Shown piece by piece: positions 39,783 to 50,311 of a stretch of DNA of 64,000 nucleotides. The translations under genes were made by a program, and so were the position numbers. The notes beneath the pieces were generated by a model. That model ran no database searches. It saw nothing but the letters and a program-made list of their open reading frames with translations, and was not told the DNA's origin. Each line of letters begins with the position of its first letter. The stretch's first letter is position 1. Source of the stretch: Spiribacter sp. 1M189 (GTDB lineage: Bacteria > Pseudomonadota > Gammaproteobacteria > Nitrococcales > Nitrococcaceae); the NCBI RefSeq assembly GCF_040838345.1, contig NZ_JBAKFF010000001.1, positions 682,001-746,000 on the forward strand, in the 5' to 3' direction.

Positions 39783-40832
39783 GTGACAACCGAGGACTAC
39801 ACGCTCGCCGAGCTGGCGGCGCTCACTGACAGCCGGCTCGAGGGGAGTGGCGAGCGGCGCATCCACGGCGTGGCTCCGCTGGAATCGGCGGGCCCGGACG
39901 ACATCAGTTTCCTCGCCAACCCCAAGTACCGCGCGCATCTTGGCGAGACCCGCGCGGCGGCCGTCATCTTACCGGATCGGGAATCGGCCGAACCGTACGA
40001 TTTTTCGGTCTTGCGCGCCGATAACCCCTATCTCGTGTTCGCGCGGATTGCCCGGATTCTCAACCCGGTGGCCCATGTCGTCCCCGGCGTGCATGCCTCG
40101 GCGAGTGTCGCTGCAGGGGTGCGTCTGGCGGATACAGCCTGTGTCGAAGCGCAGGCGGTGGTTGGTGAGGGTGCGGTGATCGGTGCCCGATGCCGGATCG
40201 GCCCCGGCGTCGTCGTTGGAGAGAATGTGGTGATCGGAGACGACTGCCGCCTCGATGCGAATGCGTCGGTGCTTGATGGTGCGCGGCTCGGGGCCCGTGT
40301 GCATATCCTGCCCGGTGCCGTGATCGGCGGCGAGGGATTCGGCTTCGCCCATGCGGGGGATCACTGGGAGCCGGTCCCACAGCTTGGCAGCGTGGTCATT
40401 GGCGATGACGTCTCCATCGGCGCGAACACCACCGTCGATCGAGGTTCCCAGGGGGACACGATCATCGGCGACGGCTGCAAGATCGATAATCTGGTGCAGG
40501 TGGCGCATAACGTCCACATCGGCGAGCATACGATCATTGCCTCGGGGACGGGCATTTCCGGGAGCACGCGTATCGGACGATACTGTACGATCGGTGGATC
40601 GGTGGGTTTCGCCGGGCATCTGGAGATCGCCGACGGCGTGACTTTCACCGGCATGGCAATGGTGATCGGCAACGTCCCCGAGGCTGGCGTCTATTCGTCG
40701 GGCATCCCCGCGATGCCAACGCGTGACTGGCGTCGGAGCGCGGTGCGCTTCCGGCAGCTTGACGAGATGGCGCGCCGGCTCGAGAAACTGGAGAAGGCAA
40801 TGCAGAAAACAAAGGAACGTGATGAGCAGTGA
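39783..40832 (+). CDS. lpxD: UDP-3-O-acylglucosamine N-acyltransferase
   Basis: Third step of lipid A synthesis, adding the N-linked hydroxyacyl chain. The 349 residues have the N-terminal uridine-binding domain (DDISFLANPKYRAHL) and a left-handed beta helix of hexapeptide repeats. The catalytic histidine region is VQVAHNVHIGEHTIIAS near 239-255. The start codon is GTG at 39783. The C-terminal helix overlaps the start of fabZ by 11 bp. With two types of LpxA product possible in this organism (see the second lpxA), this single LpxD would have to accept both. Confidence 0.97.
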   Translation: MTTEDYTLAELAALTDSRLEGSGERRIHGVAPLESAGPDDISFLANPKYRAHLGETRAAAVILPDRESAEPYDFSVLRADNPYLVFARIARILNPVAHVVPGVHASASVAAGVRLADTACVEAQAVVGEGAVIGARCRIGPGVVVGENVVIGDDCRLDANASVLDGARLGARVHILPGAVIGGEGFGFAHAGDHWEPVPQLGSVVIGDDVSIGANTTVDRGSQGDTIIGDGCKIDNLVQVAHNVHIGEHTIIASGTGISGSTRIGRYCTIGGSVGFAGHLEIADGVTFTGMAMVIGNVPEAGVYSSGIPAMPTRDWRRSAVRFRQLDEMARRLEKLEKAMQKTKERDEQ

Positions 40833-41310
40833 CCCCTCGCAGCCGGTGACGGAGCGCGTGATCAACCTGGACGGGATCAAGCGCCGTCTGCCGCACCGCT
40901 ATCCCTTCCTGCTCATCGACCGTGTCCTGGATTATTCCCCTGGCGAGTGGTTGCGCGCGGTGAAGAACATCAGCGCCAATGAGCCATGGGCAGTCGGACA
41001 TTTCCCCGACAGGGCCATCATGCCCGGCGTGCTTCTCGTCGAGGCGATGGCTCAGGCCTGCGGGCTGCTCGCCTTTGTCACCGATGAGGCACGGGCCGAT
41101 AAGGAAATGCCCTCCGAGGCGCCGCTCTTCTACCTCGTCGGTGTCGATGACGCGCGCTTCAAGCAGCCGGTAGAGCCGGGGGACAGCCCGCATATGGTGG
41201 CCTCGCTGGAACGGGTGGTGCGTGGCATCTGGTTATTCAAGGCGCGCGTTGAACTGAATGATCGCCTGGTGGCCAGTGCCGGTATCCGCTGCACGATGAG
41301 GACGATGTGA
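40822..41310 (+). CDS. fabZ: (3R)-hydroxyacyl-ACP dehydratase FabZ
   Basis: Hot-dog fold dehydratase of fatty-acid synthesis, which balances phospholipid and lipid A flux by competing with LpxA and LpxD for hydroxyacyl-ACP. The 162 residues carry the active-site sequence GHFPDRAIMPGVLLVEAMAQACG with the catalytic His and Glu. The ATG at 40822 overlaps lpxD. The stop overlaps the GTG start of lpxA. Confidence 0.97.
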   Translation: MSSDPSQPVTERVINLDGIKRRLPHRYPFLLIDRVLDYSPGEWLRAVKNISANEPWAVGHFPDRAIMPGVLLVEAMAQACGLLAFVTDEARADKEMPSEAPLFYLVGVDDARFKQPVEPGDSPHMVASLERVVRGIWLFKARVELNDRLVASAGIRCTMRTM

Positions 41311-42083
41311 CGGCGGTCCATCCGACGGCGGTTATAGACCCGGCTGCCAGACTTGCGGCCGATGTCGAGGTGGGTCCCTATGCGGTCATCGGCCCGGGGG
41401 TGGAGATTGCAGCGGGCTGCGTCATCGGTCCGCATGCAGTGATCCGGGGCCCGACCGTCATTGGCAGCGGCACGCATGTTTTCCAGTTTGCCTCCATCGG
41501 CGAAGTCCCGCAGGACAAGAAGTACGCCGGTGAGGACAGTGCCCTCGAGATCGGCTGCAACAACACCATTCGCGAGTTCGTGACCATTAATCGCGGCACC
41601 CGTGATGGCGGCGGCGTGACGCGCATCGGCGATGACAACTGGATCATGGCCTATGTGCACATCGCCCACGACTGCCTCGTCGGCAACGGGGTCGTGTTTG
41701 CCAATGGCGCCTCACTGGCCGGTCATGTTCTGGCCGGGGACGGCGTCACCCTGGGTGGGTTCACGCTGGTGCATCAGTTCTGCCGCCTCGGCGAGGGCTG
41801 CTTTACGTCCATGGGCAGCTGTATCCGGCGGGATGTTCCCCCGTGGGTCATGGTGGCCGGCGATCCGGCGATACCGCATGGCACCAACAGTGAGGGTCTG
41901 CGTCGCCGGGGTCTTGATGGCGAGGAGCAGCGGCGTCTGCGGGCCGCCTACCGAACGCTCTACAAGCGTGGCCTGCGTCTCCAGGAGGCGATCGACGCCA
42001 TCGCCGCCGACGCCGACGATGATCCGTTGATCGAGCGTTTCGTGGCGTTCCTGCGAGAGTCGCCCCGCGGCATCGTCCGCTGA
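41307..42083 (+). CDS. lpxA: UDP-N-acetylglucosamine acyltransferase LpxA (canonical copy)
   Basis: First step of lipid A synthesis, transferring a hydroxyacyl chain from ACP to the 3-position of UDP-GlcNAc. The 258 residues form a hexapeptide-repeat beta helix. By alignment to the E. coli enzyme, the catalytic histidine is His121 (HIAHD), the important lysine is present (PQDKKY), and the nucleotide-binding run reads NSEGLRRRG with the Glu and Arg pair kept. The start is a GTG overlapping fabZ. It sits in the standard lpxD-fabZ-lpxA-lpxB order and is therefore the ordinary enzyme; a divergent paralogue is at 45.9-46.7 kb. Confidence 0.97.
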   Translation: MTAVHPTAVIDPAARLAADVEVGPYAVIGPGVEIAAGCVIGPHAVIRGPTVIGSGTHVFQFASIGEVPQDKKYAGEDSALEIGCNNTIREFVTINRGTRDGGGVTRIGDDNWIMAYVHIAHDCLVGNGVVFANGASLAGHVLAGDGVTLGGFTLVHQFCRLGEGCFTSMGSCIRRDVPPWVMVAGDPAIPHGTNSEGLRRRGLDGEEQRRLRAAYRTLYKRGLRLQEAIDAIAADADDDPLIERFVAFLRESPRGIVR

Positions 42084-42095
42084 GCCGAGGGCGGC

Positions 42096-43244
42096 ATGCG
42101 GATCGCACTCGTTGCGGGTGAACCCTCCGGTGACTTCCTCGGTGGTGGCCTGATCCAGGCGCTGTCGGCGCGCTTCCCGGGGGCAACCTTCGAAGGCATC
42201 GGCGGCAGTCATATGACGGCCGCGGGGCTTGAGACCTTTCATCCGCTCGATGCCCTCTCAGTGATGGGTGTTGCCGAGGTGCTGCGTCACCTGCCGCGCC
42301 TGCTCGTCATCCGACGTGACCTGCGTCGGCGCTGGATCAGCGATCCGCCGGACGTGTTCATCGGCGTTGACGCGCCGGACTTCAATCTGGGTCTGGCCCG
42401 CTCGCTGCGCTCCATCGGTATCCCGACCCTGCAATATGTGAGCCCGACGGTGTGGGCCTGGCGATCCGGACGGATCCGGCTGATCCGCCAGGCGGTCGAC
42501 CGCATGCTCTGTATCTATCCGTTCGAGGATGACTTCTTCGCCCGATCAGGGGTGGATTCGCGTTTCGTGGGTCACCCGCTGGCTGACGAGATTGCGCTGC
42601 AGACCGATCATGCAGCGGCTCGCGAATCTTTCCGGATGGAGGCCGGCGAGTCGATGATCGCGCTGCTGCCCGGCAGCCGCCGCAGCGAGATCCAGCGCCT
42701 GCTGCCGGTCTTCCTCGAGGTGGCTGACCGGATCACGGCGGTCCTTCCAGAGAGCCGGTTCGTGATCCCCGCTGCGACCCCCGCGCTGCAGACGATGATC
42801 GAGGAGGGCGTTGGCGGGTCCTCCCGCCGGGCGAGAGTGGCGGTGATACCCGGTCAGTCGCGAAGGGTTCTGGCCGGCGCTGACGCCGGGCTGATCGCAT
42901 CCGGGACGGCCACGCTGGAGGCCATGCTGCTCAAATGCCCGTCGGTCATGGCCTACCGCGTCAATGCCATGACCGCGATGCTGGCGCGCCGGAGCCTGCG
43001 GATTCCGTTCTTCGCGATGCCCAATCTCATGGCGGGCGAAATGCTGATGCCCGAGTTCGTGCAGGACAAGGCCAATGCCGAGGCCATCACCCCCGCGGTC
43101 CTCTCGTTGCTCGAGGCACGACGCAAGCGGCGGGAAATCGCCGAGCGCTTTGCCGAGCTCCATGCCCGGCTCCGGCTGAATGCCAGCGAGCAAGCGGCGG
43201 CGGGGGTTGCCGACTTGCTCTCAAGCCGTGGAGAGCGCGATTGA
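42096..43244 (+). CDS. lpxB: Lipid A disaccharide synthase
   Basis: GT19 glycosyltransferase that joins UDP-diacylglucosamine and lipid X. The 382 residues start [17 protein letters not shown] and include the [36 protein letters not shown] and [11 protein letters not shown] motifs of the family. The stop codon overlaps the TTG start of rnhB. Confidence 0.97.
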
Positions 43245-43822
43245 ATAGCCTGATCGATGGTGATGTCGCGGGCGTCGATGAGGTGGGCCGCGGCCCACTG
43301 GCTGGCCCGGTGGTGGCCGCCGCGGTGCGGCTCGACCCCACCGTCAGCTGGTCTGAACTGCGTGACTCGAAGCGGCTTTCACGCCGACGCCGGGAACAGC
43401 TCGATGCCATGATCCGTGAGCAGGCGCTGGACTGGCGAATCGAGATCGCCAGTGTGGAGGAAATCGACCAACTGAATATCCGCGTGGCCAGCCTGCTCGC
43501 CATGCAGCGCGCCGTAGCCGCACTGACACCGGCGCCGCGGGCGATCCTGGTGGACGGAAGGGATGTACCGAGCGTGGCATGCCCCGCCACCGCGGTGGTG
43601 GGGGGTGATGACAGCGTGCCGGCCATTGCCGCGGCCTCCATCATCGCCAAGGTTTACCGCGACCGCTGCATCCTCGCGCTGCATGAGCAGTATCCGCAGT
43701 ACGGGTTCGACCGGCATATGGGTTACCCGACCATGCTGCATCGCGAACGCCTGCGGGCCAATGGGCCCTGTCCGGCGCATCGGCGCAGCTTTGCGCCGGT
43801 GAGAAGGCTACTCAGCGTCTGA
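43241..43822 (+). CDS. rnhB: Ribonuclease HII
   Basis: Removes RNA from RNA-DNA hybrids and single ribonucleotides from DNA. The 193 residues have the DE pair in [14 protein letters not shown] (Asp13, Glu14), the aspartate in ILVDGRDVP, and the SIIAKVYRD and [14 protein letters not shown] segments. There is no ATG in the right place; the start is TTG at 43241, which overlaps the lpxB TGA. In relatives dnaE follows directly; here a three-gene inverted operon is inserted, and rnhB overlaps the convergent gnnB by 11 bp. Confidence 0.96.
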
Positions 43823-44951
43823 TCACGTCGATGACGCGTTCGATATCGGCGTCCGGCATTTCGGGGTACATCGGCAGGGAGAGGCAGCGCGCGGCAGTCG
43901 AGTCCGCCACCGGACAACCCGGACCGTTGCGGTTCATGGTGTGCACCGGCTCCGCTCCGCCGAAGGCCGCCTGGCGGTGCAGGGGGACGGGGTAGTAGAC
44001 GGCGGAGGCGATATGCTCTGCCGCCAGTCGCTCCATCAGCGCGTCGCGCCCGGCCTGGTCGTCGCAAAGCAGGGTGTACTGGTGATACACATGCCTCCCG
44101 ATCCCGTCCTCATGGGGGGTGACCAGACCCGGTCGTCCGGCGAGTCCCTCGCTGTAGCGATGGGCAACCCGACGGCGGCCATCGTTGAAGTGATCGATAT
44201 GGGGGAGTTTGGCCCTGAGGATAACGGCCTGCAGCTCGTCAAGCCGGCTGTTGTAGCCGATACGATCATGGTAGTAACGACGATGACTACCGTGGTTGCG
44301 CAGGGCGCGTAATTCCCGGGCAATGGCCTCGTCCTGGGTGGTCACAAGACCACCGTCGCCGTAGCCGCCCAGATTCTTGCTGGGGAAGAAGCTGAACGCC
44401 CCGGTGACGCCCCGGCTGCCGGTCATGTCGTCGTCGATCGCGGCGCCGAATGATTGGGCGCAATCCTCGATCAGCTGCAGGCCGTGATGCGTCGCCAGCG
44501 CCTGGAGCCGCGGCATGTCGGCGGGTTGGCCGAACAGATGAACCGGCACGATGGCCCGGGTTCGCGGACCGATCGCGGCGGCGACGGCATCCGGGTCAAG
44601 GTTGAAGGTCTGCGGGTCGATGTCCGCGAATACGGGCCGCGCGCCGACGTAGCAGATGGCCTCAGCCGTGGCGATGAAAGAAAAGGGGGTGGTGATCACC
44701 TCGTCGCCGGGGCCAACACCCGCCCCAAGCAGGGCGAGATGCAGCGCATCCGTGCCGGAGGCCACACCCACGGCATGGGCGCAGCCGAGATAGTCGGCTG
44801 CCTCCGCCTCGAACGCCTGGACACCGGGGCCCAGGATAAAGCGTGCCTCGTCCAGCGCCGCCGCCAGGCCGTCATCAATGGCCCCTCGGATCAACGGGTA
44901 CTGTGCCGTCAGATCGACCATGGGGATAGGGTGGGGTGCGGTGTCGCTCAT
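43812..44951 (-). CDS. gnnB: DegT/DnrJ/EryC1 aminotransferase, probable GnnB (UDP-GlcNAc3N synthesis)
   Basis: PLP-dependent sugar-nucleotide aminotransferase of 379 residues. The cofactor lysine is Lys192 in [14 protein letters not shown], and [10 protein letters not shown] supplies the PLP-nitrogen aspartate (Asp163). Predicted role: transamination of UDP-3-keto-GlcNAc from GnnA to UDP-2-acetamido-3-amino-2,3-dideoxyglucose. The evidence for this role is context: its start overlaps the gnnA stop by ATGA, and gnnA in turn overlaps a second lpxA. Gene trios of this type make amide-linked lipid A in Acidithiobacillus and Leptospira. By sequence alone it could also be WbpE-like (diamino-uronic acid for O-antigen), but no acetyltransferase WbpD or UDP-sugar 6-dehydrogenase is nearby. 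Confidence 0.85.
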
Positions 44952-45895
44952 ACGGCATTCCGGTTGAGTTGTTGTCCGATCTCGATGGCCGCCGCCAGCG
45001 CCCGTCGACCGTCCTGCGCATCCACGATGGGCCGGCTACCCCCGTGGACGGATGCGACAAAAGCGCCGATTTCGTCGGCGAGGGCATCCCGGCGTTCGAT
45101 CTCCCGCTTTTCCCGCTCGATCTGGTCCATGGTGGGGGGTCCCTGCGCGTCGACCCGGCGTCGCTGAATATCCAGCTCGCCTGCCTGCAGGTCGAGGGCG
45201 AGGTAGGCGTTGGGCTGGAAGATCCGCATCCGGCGCTCGGCCTTGGGGCTGACGCGCGATGCAGTGACGTTGGCGATGCAGCCGTCGGCGAAGCGGAGGC
45301 GGGCATTGGCGATGTCGATATCCTCGGAAATGACCCGCGCCCCGCTCGCATCCATCTGTTCCAGTGGCGCATCCACCAGCTCGAGAATCAGGTCGATGTC
45401 GTGGATCATCAGGTCGAGCACCACACTGACGTCTGCACCGCGAGGATTGAATGGGGCGATGCGATGTGACTCGATGAACAGCGGCCGATGGATCTGCGTT
45501 GCCGCCGCCACCATGACGGCATTGAACCGCTCGAGGTGCCCGACCTGGATAAGGCAGCCGTTCTCTTCGGCCGCTTCAATCAGTTCGTCCGCTTCGGCGA
45601 GTGTCGTGGTCATGGGTTTTTCGATGAGCAGGTGGAGCCCGGCACCGATCAGCCGCAGCGCCATCTCGTGATGCAGACGCGTCGGCGTGACCAGGCTCAC
45701 GGCATCGACGCGGCCGATCAGTGCCCGGGGATCGGTCGACGCCTCGCAGCCGAGCTCATCGGCCACCTGTCGCGCCCGATCGGCGTCGGCATCCACCACG
45801 GCGACAAGATCGCAGTCGGGGTGCGCTGCGTATTTCTGCGCATGGAATCGGCCGAGGTAGCCGACACCCACCACCGCGGTGCGCAGGCGACTCAT
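44948..45895 (-). CDS. gnnA: Gfo/Idh/MocA dehydrogenase, probable GnnA (UDP-GlcNAc 3-oxidase)
   Basis: NAD-dependent sugar dehydrogenase of 315 residues. The Rossmann motif GVGYLG is at 10-15, the family EKPMTTT motif is at 92-98, and the MIHDIDLILELV segment supplies active-site histidine and aspartate. Predicted role: oxidation of C-3 of UDP-GlcNAc to the ketone used by the neighbouring aminotransferase. It overlaps lpxA2 upstream and gnnB downstream by four bases each (ATGA), so the three are translated as a coupled unit. Generic Gfo/Idh similarity would not settle the substrate; the pairing with an LpxA paralogue does most of the work. Confidence 0.83.
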   Translation of the reverse strand: MSRLRTAVVGVGYLGRFHAQKYAAHPDCDLVAVVDADADRARQVADELGCEASTDPRALIGRVDAVSLVTPTRLHHEMALRLIGAGLHLLIEKPMTTTLAEADELIEAAEENGCLIQVGHLERFNAVMVAAATQIHRPLFIESHRIAPFNPRGADVSVVLDLMIHDIDLILELVDAPLEQMDASGARVISEDIDIANARLRFADGCIANVTASRVSPKAERRMRIFQPNAYLALDLQAGELDIQRRRVDAQGPPTMDQIEREKREIERRDALADEIGAFVASVHGGSRPIVDAQDGRRALAAAIEIGQQLNRNAV

Positions 45896-46677
45896 CGGGT
45901 CAGCCCCCGGCGACTGGCGCGAATGAACGCAGTAAAGACCTCAATCTCCGGCCGCGTCAGCTCCGCATCGGCACTGATTGACGCCAGCGCGGTATCCAGT
46001 GAGTGGCCGCGCCGGAAGACCAGATCATAGACGCGACGGACATCCCGGCGCTGATCCGCGCTCAGCCCCGCCCGTGCCAGGCCGCGGGTATTCAGCCCGC
46101 GGAGGCGGGCGCGGTTACCCGCCACCAGGGTGTAGGGGGCGACGTCCCGGGTCACGACTGCGCCGCCGCCCACCATCGCAAGGCGGCCGATATGCACGAA
46201 TTGATGGATGCCGCAGACCGCCGAGATAGTGGCTTGATCATCGACATGGACATGACCCGCCAGCTGGCTTGCGTTGGAGATGGTGACCCCATCGCCGATC
46301 TGGCCGTCATGGCCGACATGGCTGTAGGCCATTAAAAGATTGTTGTTGCCCACCCGCGTGACACCGTCCTCCTTGGTGCTTGCCCGATGCACCGTCACGA
46401 ACTCGCGGAAGGTGTTGCCAGCGCCGATTTCCAGCGCGGTCGGCTCGCCCTGGTAGCCGGTGTCCTGCGGCGGCAGACCGAGCGTTGCGTGGGCGGCGAC
46501 GTCATTGTCGGGCCCCAGGCGAAGGGGGCCTTCGAGGACCGCATGGGGCCCGATGACGCAGTCATCGCCAATGGATACGTCGGGGCCCACAATCGCATAC
46601 GCGCCAACGCGGCTGCGCTCGCCGATCTCGGCCCGGTCGTCGATGCAAGCGGTGGGGTGGATGCGGGTCTCCTGCAT
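45892..46677 (-). CDS. lpxA2: Second LpxA-type acyltransferase, diverged, probably specific for UDP-GlcNAc3N
   Basis: Hexapeptide-repeat acyltransferase of 261 residues, the same length as E. coli LpxA. The catalytic histidine is kept (His123 in HVGHD), as are the LAGHV histidine and FREFVTVHR. It differs from the canonical copy at positions that matter in the E. coli enzyme by my alignment: the lysine of PQDxKY is Gly (PQDTGY), and the NxEGLxRR run reads NTRGLARA, losing the Glu and the second Arg. With gnnA and gnnB it likely adds an amide-linked acyl chain to the 3-amino sugar. The start at 46677 fits homology (IHPTA); the frame is open to 46782. It is divergent from dnaE. The symbol is descriptive, not established. 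Confidence 0.85.
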   Translation of the reverse strand: MQETRIHPTACIDDRAEIGERSRVGAYAIVGPDVSIGDDCVIGPHAVLEGPLRLGPDNDVAAHATLGLPPQDTGYQGEPTALEIGAGNTFREFVTVHRASTKEDGVTRVGNNNLLMAYSHVGHDGQIGDGVTISNASQLAGHVHVDDQATISAVCGIHQFVHIGRLAMVGGGAVVTRDVAPYTLVAGNRARLRGLNTRGLARAGLSADQRRDVRRVYDLVFRRGHSLDTALASISADAELTRPEIEVFTAFIRASRRGLTR

Positions 46678-46780
46678 GGGTGCATGATGGCGGAAACGGT
46701 CGATCACGGCCAGTCCACGATCTATCATTGCCGTGTCGTTCGGCGGTACGATTAGCGGTCTGACCGGCTCGGGTAGGATC

Positions 46781-49700
46781 ATGTCGCCAGCCTTTGTCCA
46801 TCTCCACCTTCATACCGAATTTTCGCTGATCGACGGGACCGTGCGGGTGAAGCCGCTGGTCCAGACCGCCGCTCGCGAGGGGATGCCGGCGGTGGCGGTC
46901 ACCGACCAGGGCAACCTGTTCGGTATGGTCAAGTTCTACAGTGCCGCAGTGGCCGCCGGCGTGAAGCCCATTATTGGTGCCGACCTGCGTATCGCCGATG
47001 CCGACCGGGACGGCCATCACGTCCTCACTTTCCTGTGCATGGATGACACGGGTTACGCCAACCTCACGCGCCTGATCACGGCGAGCTACCTGGACGGCCA
47101 GGGCGAAGGGCTCCCGCTGGTGGACCGGCGCTGGCTGGACGACTGGAGCGAGGGGCTGATCGTGCTCTCTGGCGCCGCAGGGGGCGATGTCGGCGAGGCG
47201 CTGGTCTCGGGTAACGGTGATCTCGCCCATCGGCGCCTTGCCTTCTGGCAGCAGCGTTTCGGTGACCGTTTCTATCTCGAGTTACAGCGGACGGATCGTC
47301 CGGGTGATGAGGCTCATGTCCATGCCGCCGTGGCGCTCGCCGCGGAGACTGGCACCGCCGTGGTCGCCACCAATGACGTGCGCTTTCTCGAACGCGGTGA
47401 CTTCGAAGCCCACGAGGCGCGGGTCTGCATCCATGACGGCCGGATCCTCCACGATCAGGATCGCCCCCGGCACTACAGCGACGCGCAATATCTGCGCAGT
47501 CCCGCCGAGATGATCGAGCGCTTCGCCGACATTCCCGAGGCCATCGACAACACCGTGGCCATCGCGCAGCGATGCAACCTCTCGCTGACCCTTGGCCAGA
47601 ATGTCCTGCCAGACTTCCCGGTACCCGGTGACCAGACCATCGACGACTACCTGCGCGAGGAATCACGCGCGGGTCTGGCGCAGCGTATCGCGCGGCTGGG
47701 CACACCCGGCGGCGACGAGGCCGAATACTACGCCCGGCTGGATCACGAACTCGATGTGATCATTCAGATGGGCTTTCCGGGATACTTCCTGATCGTGGCC
47801 GACTTCATTCGGTGGGCCAAGTCGCGCGACATCCCGGTGGGGCCGGGGCGCGGATCGGGGGCCGGGTCGCTGGTGGCTTATTCGCTGGACATAACCGACC
47901 TTGATCCATTGCGTTACGACCTGCTCTTCGAGCGCTTTCTCAACCCCGAGCGGGTCTCCATGCCGGATTTCGATGTCGATTTCTGCATGGAAAAACGCGA
48001 CCAGGTCATCGACTATGTGGCCGAGCGCTACGGCCGCGAGAAGGTCTCCCAGATCGCCACCCACGGGACCATGGCGGCCCGGGCCGTGGTGCGCGATGTC
48101 GGCCGGGTGCTCGGGCACGGCTATGGGTACGTCGATCGCATCGCCAAGCTGATTCCCTTCGAGATCGGCATGACGCTGGATAAGGCGCTGGCCCAGGAAG
48201 CCGATCTGCGGGAGCTCGCCGAGCAGGATGAGGACGTGGGCTTTCTGCTCGATCTGGCGGGCCGGCTCGAGGGGCTGTCCCGCAATGTCGGCAAGCATGC
48301 CGGTGGCGTGGTGATAGCCCCCAGTGATCTCACCGACTTCGCACCGCTTTTCTGTGAGCCGGATGGCGGCGGACTGGCGACGCAGTTCGACAAGGACGAT
48401 GTCGAGGCCGTGGGTCTGGTGAAGTTCGACTTTCTGGGCCTGCGCACGCTCACCATCATCGACTGGACGGTGAAGGCGGTGAACGCGCTGCGGGAAGCCC
48501 GCGGTGATCAGGCACTGGACATCGCAACGATCCCGCTTGATGACAAGCCGACCTTCGAGCGGCTCAAGGAATGCCAGACAACGGCCGTTTTCCAGCTTGA
48601 ATCCCGCGGTATGAAAGATCTCATCCGGCGGCTCCGGCCGGATAGCTTCGAGGACATTGTCGCCCTGGTCGCCCTGTTCCGGCCGGGCCCCCTGCAGTCG
48701 GGCATGGTCGAGGATTTCATCGACCGCAAGCATGGCCGCAAGCCGGTGGCCTATCCGACGCCGGAACTCCATCACGATGCACTCAGGCCGATCCTCCAGC
48801 CCACCTACGGGGTGATCCTCTACCAGGAACAGGTCATGCAGATCGCCCAGGCCGTGGGTGGTTACAGCCTGGGCGAGGCGGATCTGCTGCGCCGGGCGAT
48901 GGGCAAGAAAAAGCCCGAGGAGATGGCCAAGCAGCGCACCATCTTCCTCGAGGGCGCGAAGGGGCAGGGCCTGAGGGCCGAACACGCCGAGGGGCTGTTC
49001 GACCTGATGGAGAAGTTCGCCGGCTATGGTTTCAACAAGTCGCACTCGGCGGCGTACGCGCTGCTCTCCTATCAGACGGCCTGGCTGAAGGCGCATTACC
49101 CCTCGGCCTTCATGGCCGCGGTGCTGTCCTCCGACATGGATAACACCGACAAGGTGGTCACGCTCATTGATGAGTGCCGCGCCATGTCGCTCGAGGTTGC
49201 GCCGCCGGACGTCAACCGCTCGGACTGGATGTTCCGGGCCCCGGACGATGGTGGTGTCGTCTATGGCCTTGGCGCGGTCAAGGGCGTTGGTCACTCGGCG
49301 GTGGAGGCCATCGTCGAAGCCCGCCATGAGGGCGGCGCGTTCCAGGATCTGCATGATCTGTGTCGACGGGTGGACCTGCGGCGGGTCAACCGTCGGGTTC
49401 TCGAGGCATTGATCCGATCGGGCAGCCTGGATGGCATTACACCGAACCGTGCCACCGCCATGGCGAATCTCCCCAATGCGCTGCAGGCGGCCGAACAGCA
49501 GAGCCGCAACACGGAGATCGGTCAGGACGATCTTTTCGGTCTGGGCGCTGCCACGGAGGAGCATGCGGGCGAGGGCGGTGCGCATGCGCTCGAACGGGTC
49601 GAGGAATGGCTGGAGCGGGAGCGACTGGCGGCCGAGAAAGAGACGCTCGGTCTCTACCTCACTGGCCACCCAATCAGCGAGCATGAGGCGGAGCTCGCGG

Positions 49701-50311
49701 GCTTCATCAGCGGCCGCCTCAAGCAGGCCGGCACGGGGCTCGAGCGCAGCACCGGGCGTCGCGACAGCGAGCAGCGCGTGGTCCTGGCCGGCCTGGTGGT
49801 GGCGGCACGCAGCCGAATCACCCAGAGCGGCCGAAGGCTTGGGTTTGTGACCCTGGATGACCGCACTGCCCGCATGGAGATCGTGCTCTTCGGAGATGTC
49901 TATCAGCGCCACCGCCACCTGCTGGAGAAGGATCGGCTCATCGTTGTGGAGGGAGACCTCGGCTACGATGAGTTCAGCGATGGCTACCGCGTCTCCGCGG
50001 AACGGGTGTATGACCTCGCGGGCGCCCGGCTGCACTTCGCCCGGCGGCTGGTATTGCGGGTGGATGCCGAGCAGGCGGGCAATGGGTTTGTGCCGGCTCT
50101 TCAGGAGGCACTCGCGCCCTATCAGCAAGGCGAGTGCAGCGTTTGTATCGACTACGAGGGCCCCGACGTCTGCGCCCGGATCCGTCTGGGCGATGAGTGG
50201 CGCGTCCGCCCCGAGCCGGAGTTGATCAATGCACTCGCGCGGCTGTTGCCGGCGGACCGGGTGGCCGTCGACTACCGGCGACAGGCGCGTGGTAGGATCT
50301 GGCAATCTTGA
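46781..50311 (+). CDS. dnaE: DNA polymerase III alpha subunit
   Basis: Replicative polymerase, C-family. The 1,176 residues have an N-terminal PHP domain (FVHLHLHTEFSLIDG), the palm with catalytic aspartates in PDFDVDF (Asp398, Asp400), the fingers, and helix-hairpin-helix. The clamp-binding motif QDDLF is at 915-919, followed by the OB domain. The ATG at 46781 gives the normal N-terminus. It is separated from rnhB by the inverted gnnB-gnnA-lpxA2 operon and followed 16 bp later by accA, its usual neighbour. Confidence 0.98.
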   Translation: MSPAFVHLHLHTEFSLIDGTVRVKPLVQTAAREGMPAVAVTDQGNLFGMVKFYSAAVAAGVKPIIGADLRIADADRDGHHVLTFLCMDDTGYANLTRLITASYLDGQGEGLPLVDRRWLDDWSEGLIVLSGAAGGDVGEALVSGNGDLAHRRLAFWQQRFGDRFYLELQRTDRPGDEAHVHAAVALAAETGTAVVATNDVRFLERGDFEAHEARVCIHDGRILHDQDRPRHYSDAQYLRSPAEMIERFADIPEAIDNTVAIAQRCNLSLTLGQNVLPDFPVPGDQTIDDYLREESRAGLAQRIARLGTPGGDEAEYYARLDHELDVIIQMGFPGYFLIVADFIRWAKSRDIPVGPGRGSGAGSLVAYSLDITDLDPLRYDLLFERFLNPERVSMPDFDVDFCMEKRDQVIDYVAERYGREKVSQIATHGTMAARAVVRDVGRVLGHGYGYVDRIAKLIPFEIGMTLDKALAQEADLRELAEQDEDVGFLLDLAGRLEGLSRNVGKHAGGVVIAPSDLTDFAPLFCEPDGGGLATQFDKDDVEAVGLVKFDFLGLRTLTIIDWTVKAVNALREARGDQALDIATIPLDDKPTFERLKECQTTAVFQLESRGMKDLIRRLRPDSFEDIVALVALFRPGPLQSGMVEDFIDRKHGRKPVAYPTPELHHDALRPILQPTYGVILYQEQVMQIAQAVGGYSLGEADLLRRAMGKKKPEEMAKQRTIFLEGAKGQGLRAEHAEGLFDLMEKFAGYGFNKSHSAAYALLSYQTAWLKAHYPSAFMAAVLSSDMDNTDKVVTLIDECRAMSLEVAPPDVNRSDWMFRAPDDGGVVYGLGAVKGVGHSAVEAIVEARHEGGAFQDLHDLCRRVDLRRVNRRVLEALIRSGSLDGITPNRATAMANLPNALQAAEQQSRNTEIGQDDLFGLGAATEEHAGEGGAHALERVEEWLERERLAAEKETLGLYLTGHPISEHEAELAGFISGRLKQAGTGLERSTGRRDSEQRVVLAGLVVAARSRITQSGRRLGFVTLDDRTARMEIVLFGDVYQRHRHLLEKDRLIVVEGDLGYDEFSDGYRVSAERVYDLAGARLHFARRLVLRVDAEQAGNGFVPALQEALAPYQQGECSVCIDYEGPDVCARIRLGDEWRVRPEPELINALARLLPADRVAVDYRRQARGRIWQS

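Follow-up and report, generated by a model that had tools for sequence, protein, structure and literature searches.

The GnnA/GnnB/LpxA pathway as such is already known; the route of Acidithiobacillus ferrooxidans was reportedly described by Sweet et al. in 2004. In a genome of the A. ferrooxidans type (G396) the block reads lpxD-fabZ-lpxA-gnnA-gnnB-lpxB-rnhB-dnaE, where lpxA-gnnA-gnnB separates fabZ from lpxB and runs in the orientation of the block. A second system is that of Capnocytophaga canimorsus, a member of another phylum than Spiribacter. The excerpted report on this species (PMC3342949) describes gnnA, gnnB and two lpxA genes (lpxA and lpxA', both clustering with lpxC and lpxD) in one genome, a hybrid GlcN3N'-GlcN backbone as the major form (over 95%), and an ester-linked 3-hydroxy acid (i15) whose chain is shorter than those in amide linkage (16, i17). 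For Leptospira, whose backbone is diaminoglucose, the primary lipid A chains are all amide-linked according to an excerpted source (PMC10248169).

The locus of Spiribacter sp. 1M189 presented here has the lpxA-gnnA-gnnB order of the A. ferrooxidans type, but a comparison of the lpx blocks showed it as an inverted unit beside a canonical lpxA. It shares with C. canimorsus, as far as the excerpted report goes, the possession of two LpxA genes, gnnA and gnnB; there the product was measured, whereas here it is predicted from the genes. A diaminoglucose backbone like that of Leptospira is predicted, the difference being that Spiribacter keeps a canonical LpxA1. In this salt-loving bacterium the compact set probably provides a second type of lipid A sugar, with amide in place of ester bonds.

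Organization of the locus

Within the window, the analyzed stretch of 64,000 nucleotides, annotation covered the lpx block, in which the gene order is lpxD-fabZ-lpxA1-lpxB-rnhB-[inverted trio]-dnaE-accA-tilS, with the following features:

lpxD, 39783..40832, plus strand: protein family match
fabZ, 40723..41310, plus strand: limits of the ORF; the real start is probably more internal
lpxA1, 41307..42083, plus strand: canonical LpxA (Lys76, Met173, Glu200)
lpxB, 42096..43244, plus strand: protein family match
rnhB, 43226..43822, plus strand: start approximate
gnnB, 44951-43812, minus strand: complete ORF of 379 aa; DegT-family PLP aminotransferase, predicted to perform the 3-keto to 3-amino step
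gnnA, 45895-44948, minus strand: complete ORF of 315 aa; Gfo/Idh/MocA family, predicted UDP-GlcNAc 3-dehydrogenase
lpxA2, 46677-45892, minus strand: complete ORF of 261 aa; LpxA paralogue, predicted UDP-GlcNAc3N N-acyltransferase
lpxA2/dnaE divergent intergenic region, 46678..46780, no strand: 103 bases
dnaE, 46781..50311, plus strand: ATG at 46781

Both junctions of the trio are ATGA overlaps (TCAT on the plus strand at 45892-45895 and 44948-44951), and gnnB overlaps rnhB, which runs towards it, by 11 bases at the 3' end of the latter (43812-43822). ORFs and coordinates thus agree with the preliminary description, which had reported an inverted three-gene unit with two such overlaps splitting rnhB from dnaE. 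The GC content in 1-kb windows over the trio (65.5-66.8%) is similar to that of the flanks.

Upstream of lpxA2, at 46683-46696, lies a 14-base block, CATGATGGC(G/C)GAAA, which was recovered with at most two mismatches in all nine Spiribacter carriers and was not found in the rnhB-dnaE gap of the five Spiribacter non-carriers. Consensus scans disclosed no sigma-70-like promoter in 43700-46900, while two terminator-like sites (1.0 expected) were observed, both within gnnA.

GnnA and GnnB

The solved protein closest to GnnA is 7bvj (E 7.6e-62, 41-43% identity; runner-up E 4.8e-24), which we take to be A. ferrooxidans GnnA and a segment of which is 100% identical to gnnA of G396. In contrast, 3q2k and 3q2i, presumably WlbA, a WbpB-type enzyme, matched GnnA weakly (E 1.7e-10 and 2.3e-08). 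The EKP and DLMIHD motifs of GnnA are invariant in all 11 aligned sequences. None of its 11 NCBIfam matches reached an equivalog cut-off, the best being the archaeal NF040723 with 183 of 450 bits.

GnnB matched PF01041 with 402 bits and contains the PLP lysine in a 10-residue motif; its 20 NCBIfam matches all stayed below their cut-offs. It is 55.4% identical to the GnnB of G396 and 43.3% to WbpE, and in a tree WbpE fell outside the 80-row group holding both GnnB and its A. ferrooxidans-type counterpart (SH-aLRT 90, branch not starred). Since 7bvj is the solved protein nearest to GnnA and WbpE lies outside the GnnB group, a WbpB/WbpE origin of the pair was rejected; the preliminary description had proposed this comparison. 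Sequence evidence backs its suggestion that GnnA, GnnB and LpxA may form a route to UDP-GlcNAc3N followed by N-acylation.

Two LpxA proteins

LpxA2 passed the LpxA equivalog model TIGR01852 with 304.9 bits (cut-off 231.05). In E. coli numbering it contains Gly76, Gly173 and Arg200, as does the A. ferrooxidans-type LpxA, and His122, His125 and Asp126 are intact. LpxA1 possesses Lys76, Met173 and Glu200 with all catalytic residues present. The earlier claim that a canonical lpxA is retained beside lpxA2 was corroborated by these residues and by the presence of lpxA1 in all ten carriers of the family. We infer that Gly76/Gly173/Arg200 may be tied to the amine selectivity of LpxA. The structure 3hsq, which we take to be Leptospira LpxA, scored below E. 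coli LpxA against LpxA2 (168 vs 214 bits). A recent duplication of lpxA1 as the source of lpxA2 was ruled out by an identity of 44% between the two proteins and by a topology test with 43 sequences (AU p 3e-19).

Lys76 was present in all 53 LpxA proteins of gnnA-negative genomes and in 13/13 Spiribacter-type LpxA1, but in none of 13 LpxA2; for Glu200 the values were 47/53 (six proteins lacking it), 13/13 and 0/13. Both sets of 13 include S. salilacus twice (L057, L068), and the 53 proteins comprise those of 13 family genomes plus 40 picked, among those with listed positions, from the 241 gnnA-negative class genomes, the latter being drawn from the best LpxA1 matches and therefore a biased sample. 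At other gnnA loci, 63 of 64 LpxA rows were readable (all except L194); Lys76 was kept in 43 and Glu200 in 28 of them. In G194 and G048 the lone LpxA match adjoins gnnA yet retains Lys76, and in six of 40 evaluable two-LpxA genomes Lys76 was lost in no copy. The 40 exclude G092, G218 and G368 (incomplete copies), G142 (no gnnA) and the window genome; of the three matches in G215, two were evaluated. The Lys76/Glu200 signature is thus not absolute.

Among 369 gammaproteobacterial genomes, 45 gave at least two LpxA matches, and 44 of these possess gnnA. Expressed by gnnA status, this amounts to 44/128 positive versus 1/241 negative genomes (Fisher p 6e-22, in a test that ignores relatedness and with the best 6-7 candidates per genome scored); the match counts are possibly inflated by fragmentation, three matches being found in G215, G236 and G368. 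The gnnA neighbourhoods were taken from all 43 other gnnA-positive genomes with at least two LpxA matches and from 19 of the 84 with fewer. In three gnnA-positive genomes (G301, G194, G048) the gene adjoining gnnA was the sole LpxA match among the best 6-7 candidates. The four best class-wide matches of protein P0001 beyond its own genome were gnnA-adjacent LpxA genes. In a class-wide LpxA tree, which included 33 of the 53 gnnA-negative sequences and E. coli and omitted L068, 43 of 117 inner branches were open.

Distribution and conservation

The trio was found beside rnhB, with constant order and orientation, in ten of 23 family genomes, so that the arrangement goes beyond chance. In nine of the ten, dnaE lies on its far side; the contig of the remaining one (G019) stops just past lpxA2. 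The trio genes are never split in these carriers. In 13 of the 23 genomes rnhB directly adjoins dnaE. The same order also occurs in two Ectothiorhodospiraceae MAGs (L069 and L070). Ectothiorhodospira mobilis and Thioalkalivibrio likewise have an inverted unit near rnhB in the lpx block, but this consists of gnnA-gnnB-lpxB, with lpxB in place of lpxA2, and one LpxA with Ser76 and Val/Ile200 was present per fetched locus.

Within Spiribacter, the trio is present in nine and absent from five of 14 genomes examined. Pairwise dN/dS values of the trio genes were 0.03-0.21 in three species pairs, in two of which synonymous sites are near saturation; for lpxA1, G000 versus G018 gave 0.056. Gaps were listed alongside these values for 21 of 23 loci. 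The non-carriers include the saltern isolates S. salinus M19-40 and UAH-SP71. Thus, adaptation to a harsh habitat, which had been put forward as a rationale for the amide bonds, was not supported, as judged from the habitats of these two non-carriers.

The genome of S. salinus M19-40 (G013) disclosed neither a gnnA match nor the trio, and its LpxA1 has Met173. The excerpted structural paper (PMC5923411) gives lipid A ions of m/z 1391.9 and 636.3 and 10:0(3-OH) at positions 3 and 3'. These ions fit a GlcN-GlcN backbone (calculated 1391.91 and 636.35); a GlcN3N form would be lighter by about 1 Da. No published lipid A of a trio carrier was found in the literature searched. With nine carriers, five non-carriers and one solved non-carrier lipid A, the genus offers a natural comparison, and presence or absence of the trio among close relatives makes the proposed function easy to test.

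Predicted lipid A and alternative explanations

The three genes probably form a full GlcN3N module for lipid A, in which an amine-specific LpxA2 would act beside LpxA1 and lead to a mixed or hybrid lipid A. As predicted from sequence, GnnA would oxidise C3 of UDP-GlcNAc, GnnB would turn the resulting 3-keto sugar into UDP-GlcNAc3N by transamination, and LpxA2 would place a 3-hydroxyacyl chain onto the 3-amino group, with LpxA1 continuing to supply the normal ester-linked UDP-3-O-acyl-GlcNAc. Handling of both pools by LpxC, LpxD, LpxH and LpxB would yield mixed lipid A, and selectivity of LpxB or LpxH a hybrid GlcN3N-GlcN form. Since the ruler residue is Met173 in LpxA1 but Gly173 in LpxA2, C10 would be expected for the ester-linked and a longer chain of about C12-C14 for the amide-linked acyl groups, a prediction based on the single position 173.

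As the preliminary description suggested, the organism could instead make two distinct lipid A types or switch between them; in this case the trio would be expressed only under some conditions and then replace the ester type. The divergent orientation of the trio with an upstream region of its own, the carrier-specific 14-base block and the conservation of lpxA1 would suit this idea. We nevertheless regard it as unlikely, the trio containing no regulator gene and the scan having yielded no consensus promoter. Moreover, in the established pathway LpxB couples a donor and an acceptor drawn from common pools, and hybrids are therefore expected unless the enzyme discriminates. Given the hybrid described for C. 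canimorsus in the excerpted report, we consider two populations or a switch no more likely than a hybrid GlcN3N-GlcN backbone. An all-amide lipid A like that of Leptospira, with LpxA2 supplying everything and LpxA1 as a dispensable relic, is improbable: the three genomes whose only LpxA match adjoins gnnA speak for it, but LpxA1 is strongly constrained, has intact catalytic residues and Lys76/Glu200, and is kept by every family carrier.

Still less credible is an N-acylated 3-amino sugar destined for O-antigen or core in the manner of WbpB/WbpE. O-antigen loci often contain members of the DegT and Gfo/Idh families, and GnnB matches WbpE at E 1.9e-85; against this stand the far greater proximity of GnnA to 7bvj than to any other solved chain, 3q2k and 3q2i included, the position of WbpE outside the GnnB group, the full-length LpxA as acyltransferase and the location in the lpx block. 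We give hardly any weight to the view that the trio is neutral or decaying and that its clean absence from relatives indicates little function. Five of the 14 Spiribacter genomes lack it, two losses inside the genus being the simplest history, but the ORFs are intact, dN/dS is 0.03-0.21 in the three species pairs and all three genes occur together in every family carrier.

Returning to the mixed or hybrid lipid A, it is conceivable, if somewhat short of probable, that many Gammaproteobacteria possess two LpxA proteins divided by acceptor (hydroxyl versus amine) and by chain length, a large residue 173 going with a short ester-linked and Gly/Ala173 with a longer amide-linked chain. If so, the 3- and 3'-chains of one lipid A would differ in bond type and length, two properties that matter for the stability of the outer membrane and for immune-receptor recognition. 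The LpxA2 signature would then forecast GlcN3N lipid A from the genome sequence alone; the paired residue pattern of LpxA1 and LpxA2 suggests such a prediction of diaminoglucose lipid A for Gammaproteobacteria.

History of the trio

Against a recent foreign insertion of the trio speak a GC content like that of the flanks and the GnnA tree, in which the 12 carriers form one clade with the branching order of the core tree where resolved. The history is maybe not purely vertical, because the LpxA2 tree (43 sequences) places G008 within Spiribacter (97/96), in conflict with the GnnA tree and the core tree. This position of G008, together with the GnnB tree, in which the two MAGs are separated, allows for some gene conversion or transfer of trio genes.

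Organization of the trio locus

The genes lpxA2, gnnA and gnnB are situated on the minus strand within the block lpxD-fabZ-lpxA1-lpxB-rnhB-dnaE-accA-tilS, where lpxA1 is the canonical lpxA.

Genes of the trio (positions in the window)
46677-45892, minus strand, lpxA2, intact gene
45895-44948, minus strand, gnnA, intact gene
44951-43812, minus strand, gnnB, intact gene

They are read in this order, and the trio is flanked by convergent rnhB on one side and by divergent dnaE (ATG at 46781) on the other. The preliminary description of three coupled minus-strand genes between rnhB and dnaE in the lpx block was thus borne out, ATGA overlaps being present at both junctions (lpxA2-gnnA and gnnA-gnnB). 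By base composition, the trio could not be distinguished from its surroundings in a scan of the window, which belongs to a Spiribacter genome of 1.95 Mb. Upstream of lpxA2 (46683-46696) resides the block CATGATGGC(G/C)GAAA, which was detected with at most two mismatches in all nine Spiribacter genomes harboring the trio (carriers). At the same stringency it was absent from the rnhB-dnaE gap of all five Spiribacter non-carriers, and it was not found in the family carrier G008 or in two Ectothiorhodospiraceae MAGs with the trio. The block is possibly an operator or part of a promoter.

Identity of the encoded enzymes

GnnA matched 7bvj with an E value of 7.6e-62 across 305 residues, and the next-ranking solved protein with 4.8e-24. 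The window GnnB shares 55.4% identity with its counterpart in G396, a genome with an A. ferrooxidans-type GnnA, and 43-45% with WbpE, 7b0d and 2oga. The phylogeny proposed earlier as a check against WbpE placed this protein outside the group comprising the GnnB proteins of the window and of G396 (support 90). LpxA2 scored above the LpxA cut-off and retains His122, His125, Asp126 and Gly143 (E. coli numbering); the roles of His125, Asp126, Gly143, Gly173 and His191 in LpxA are described in the review PMC6286764. It shares 44% identity with LpxA1 of the same genome. A tree joining LpxA1 and LpxA2 as one in-family clade was rejected (p 3e-19).

Distribution and history in the family

gnnA occurs in 10 of 23 family genomes, each of which also contains LpxA1, LpxA2 and a gnnB adjoining gnnA. 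In all ten the trio is inverted and adjoins rnhB, with dnaE on the far side in nine; the contig of G019 stops before this point. In the 13 non-carriers rnhB adjoins dnaE, the matched regions lying 44-255 bases apart. Within Spiribacter, 9 of 14 genomes harbor the trio. On a seven-protein tree (25 rows) the pattern requires at least three changes, and the simplest history inside the genus is a trio present in the Spiribacter ancestor followed by two losses, one towards S. salinus and the other in the ancestor of G009, G011, G020 and G021, a group that is sister to the window genome plus the carrier G018. G009 is UAH-SP71, presumably now S. curvatus. In the GnnA tree, the 12 carriers form a single clade (SH-aLRT 99), in which the MAGs branch first, then G008 and then Spiribacter. 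A purely vertical history is disfavored because the two MAGs are set apart from the remaining ten carriers in the GnnB tree and G008 falls inside Spiribacter in the LpxA2 tree (97/96).

Residues distinguishing the two LpxA proteins

Lys76 is present in all 53 LpxA proteins of gnnA-negative genomes (the family non-carriers, 13 in number, plus 40 drawn from the best-listed LpxA1 matches among the 241 gnnA-negative genomes of the class) and in 13/13 Spiribacter-type LpxA1, but in 0/13 LpxA2, which possess Gly (7), Ser (3) or Thr (3) instead; both sets of 13 count S. salilacus twice. Similarly, Glu200 was found in 47/53, 13/13 and 0/13, respectively, while position 173 is Met in every LpxA1 and Gly in every LpxA2. 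The A. ferrooxidans-type LpxA (L168) exhibits Gly76, Gly173 and Arg200. According to Sweet et al. (2004), the A. ferrooxidans enzyme reportedly prefers UDP-GlcNAc3N. Among 63 readable LpxA sequences at other gnnA loci, Lys76 is kept in 43 and Glu200 in 28, which argues against a simple residue rule. Many such sequences are canonical copies and have their partner at another genomic site; in G194 and G048 the sole LpxA match has Lys76.

Second LpxA copies and gnnA in Gammaproteobacteria

With the best six to seven candidates per genome scored, gnnA was detected in 128 of 369 Gammaproteobacteria (7bvj segment as query, E ≤1e-40) and at least two LpxA matches in 45 (E ≤1e-30), 44 of which are gnnA-positive. 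This corresponds to 44/128 gnnA-positive versus 1/241 gnnA-negative genomes (p 6e-22 in a test that ignores relatedness). The single gnnA-negative genome with two matches, G142, has Lys76 in both (L267, L309).

Of the 43 further gnnA-positive genomes with multiple matches, 40 had at least two readable copies. In all 40, at least one copy lacked Glu200, and in 34 at least one lacked Lys76; position 173 was small (Gly/Ala) in one copy and large (Met/Phe/Ile/Leu) in another in 36. His122, His125 and Asp126 (or Asn) were intact in all 81 copies. A strict pair, one copy with Lys76/Glu200 and one without both, was present in 26 genomes. For eight of these (G094, G050, G067, G088, G158, G196, G236 and G327) the second copy was mapped by script to a position no more than 2.5 kb from gnnA.

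In Simiduia aestuariiviva and a gammaproteobacterial MAG two lpxA genes adjoin each other, one with Lys76/Glu200 and the other not (L073, from 13285 and 14066; L090, from 6135 and 6918). At four loci of Ectothiorhodospira mobilis and Thioalkalivibrio (L083, L091, L093, L094) an inverted gnnA-gnnB-lpxB adjoins rnhB, and the LpxA of the locus has Ser76 and Val/Ile200; lipid A of these bacteria may be all-amide. Searching the fetched neighbourhoods with the window gnnB (tblastn, E 1e-8) gave no match near gnnA at L071, L076, L077, L100, L103, L110, L116 and L142, which include Granulosicoccaceae, Steroidobacter and Legionella. The partner may be located elsewhere, or another aminotransferase may serve.

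Predicted lipid A

Most likely, GnnA and GnnB would form UDP-GlcNAc3N, which LpxA2 would N-acylate, and LpxC, LpxD, LpxH and LpxB would be common to both pools and process each. The GnnA/GnnB pathway and the two-LpxA state are already in print. A second lpxA is also known from Legionella; the one paper listed in an open-licence search does not deal with it. Among the open-licence papers searched, we found neither carrier Spiribacter lipid A, nor an association of gnnA with a second LpxA throughout Gammaproteobacteria, nor the paired 76/173/200 pattern; these points concern a known kind of system that is easily testable, not a new kind.

S. salinus M19-40 provides a natural control, as its trio site is empty, its genome gave no gnnA match and its LpxA1 has Met173. 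In its lipid A, as described in PMC5923411, both position 3 and position 3' are occupied by 10:0(3-OH). This chain is evidently ester-linked, since it was released as fatty acid in MS/MS and was gone from the ammonium-treated products, which retained the 14-carbon amide chains. The ions published there (m/z 1391.9, 1471.9 and 636.3) fit values calculated for a GlcN-GlcN backbone (1391.91, 1471.87 and 636.35); by mass arithmetic, each GlcN3N unit would shift them about 1 lower. These data fit the prediction from sequence of a lone canonical, C10-type LpxA. For carriers, the sequences predict an extra GlcN3N unit and, on it, a longer chain in amide linkage.

Carriers may also switch between two lipid A types. 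For a hybrid backbone, and for a shorter ester-linked chain, the best precedent is Capnocytophaga canimorsus. PMC3342949 describes for this species gnnA and gnnB alongside two lpxA copies, a GlcN3N'-GlcN hybrid as major backbone (>95%), ester-linked i15:0(3-OH), and amide-linked 16:0(3-OH) and i17:0(3-OH). Inactivation of gnnA and gnnB in Campylobacter jejuni, as reported in PMC8036547, increased TLR4 activation and antimicrobial-peptide sensitivity; the module therefore has phenotypic weight elsewhere.
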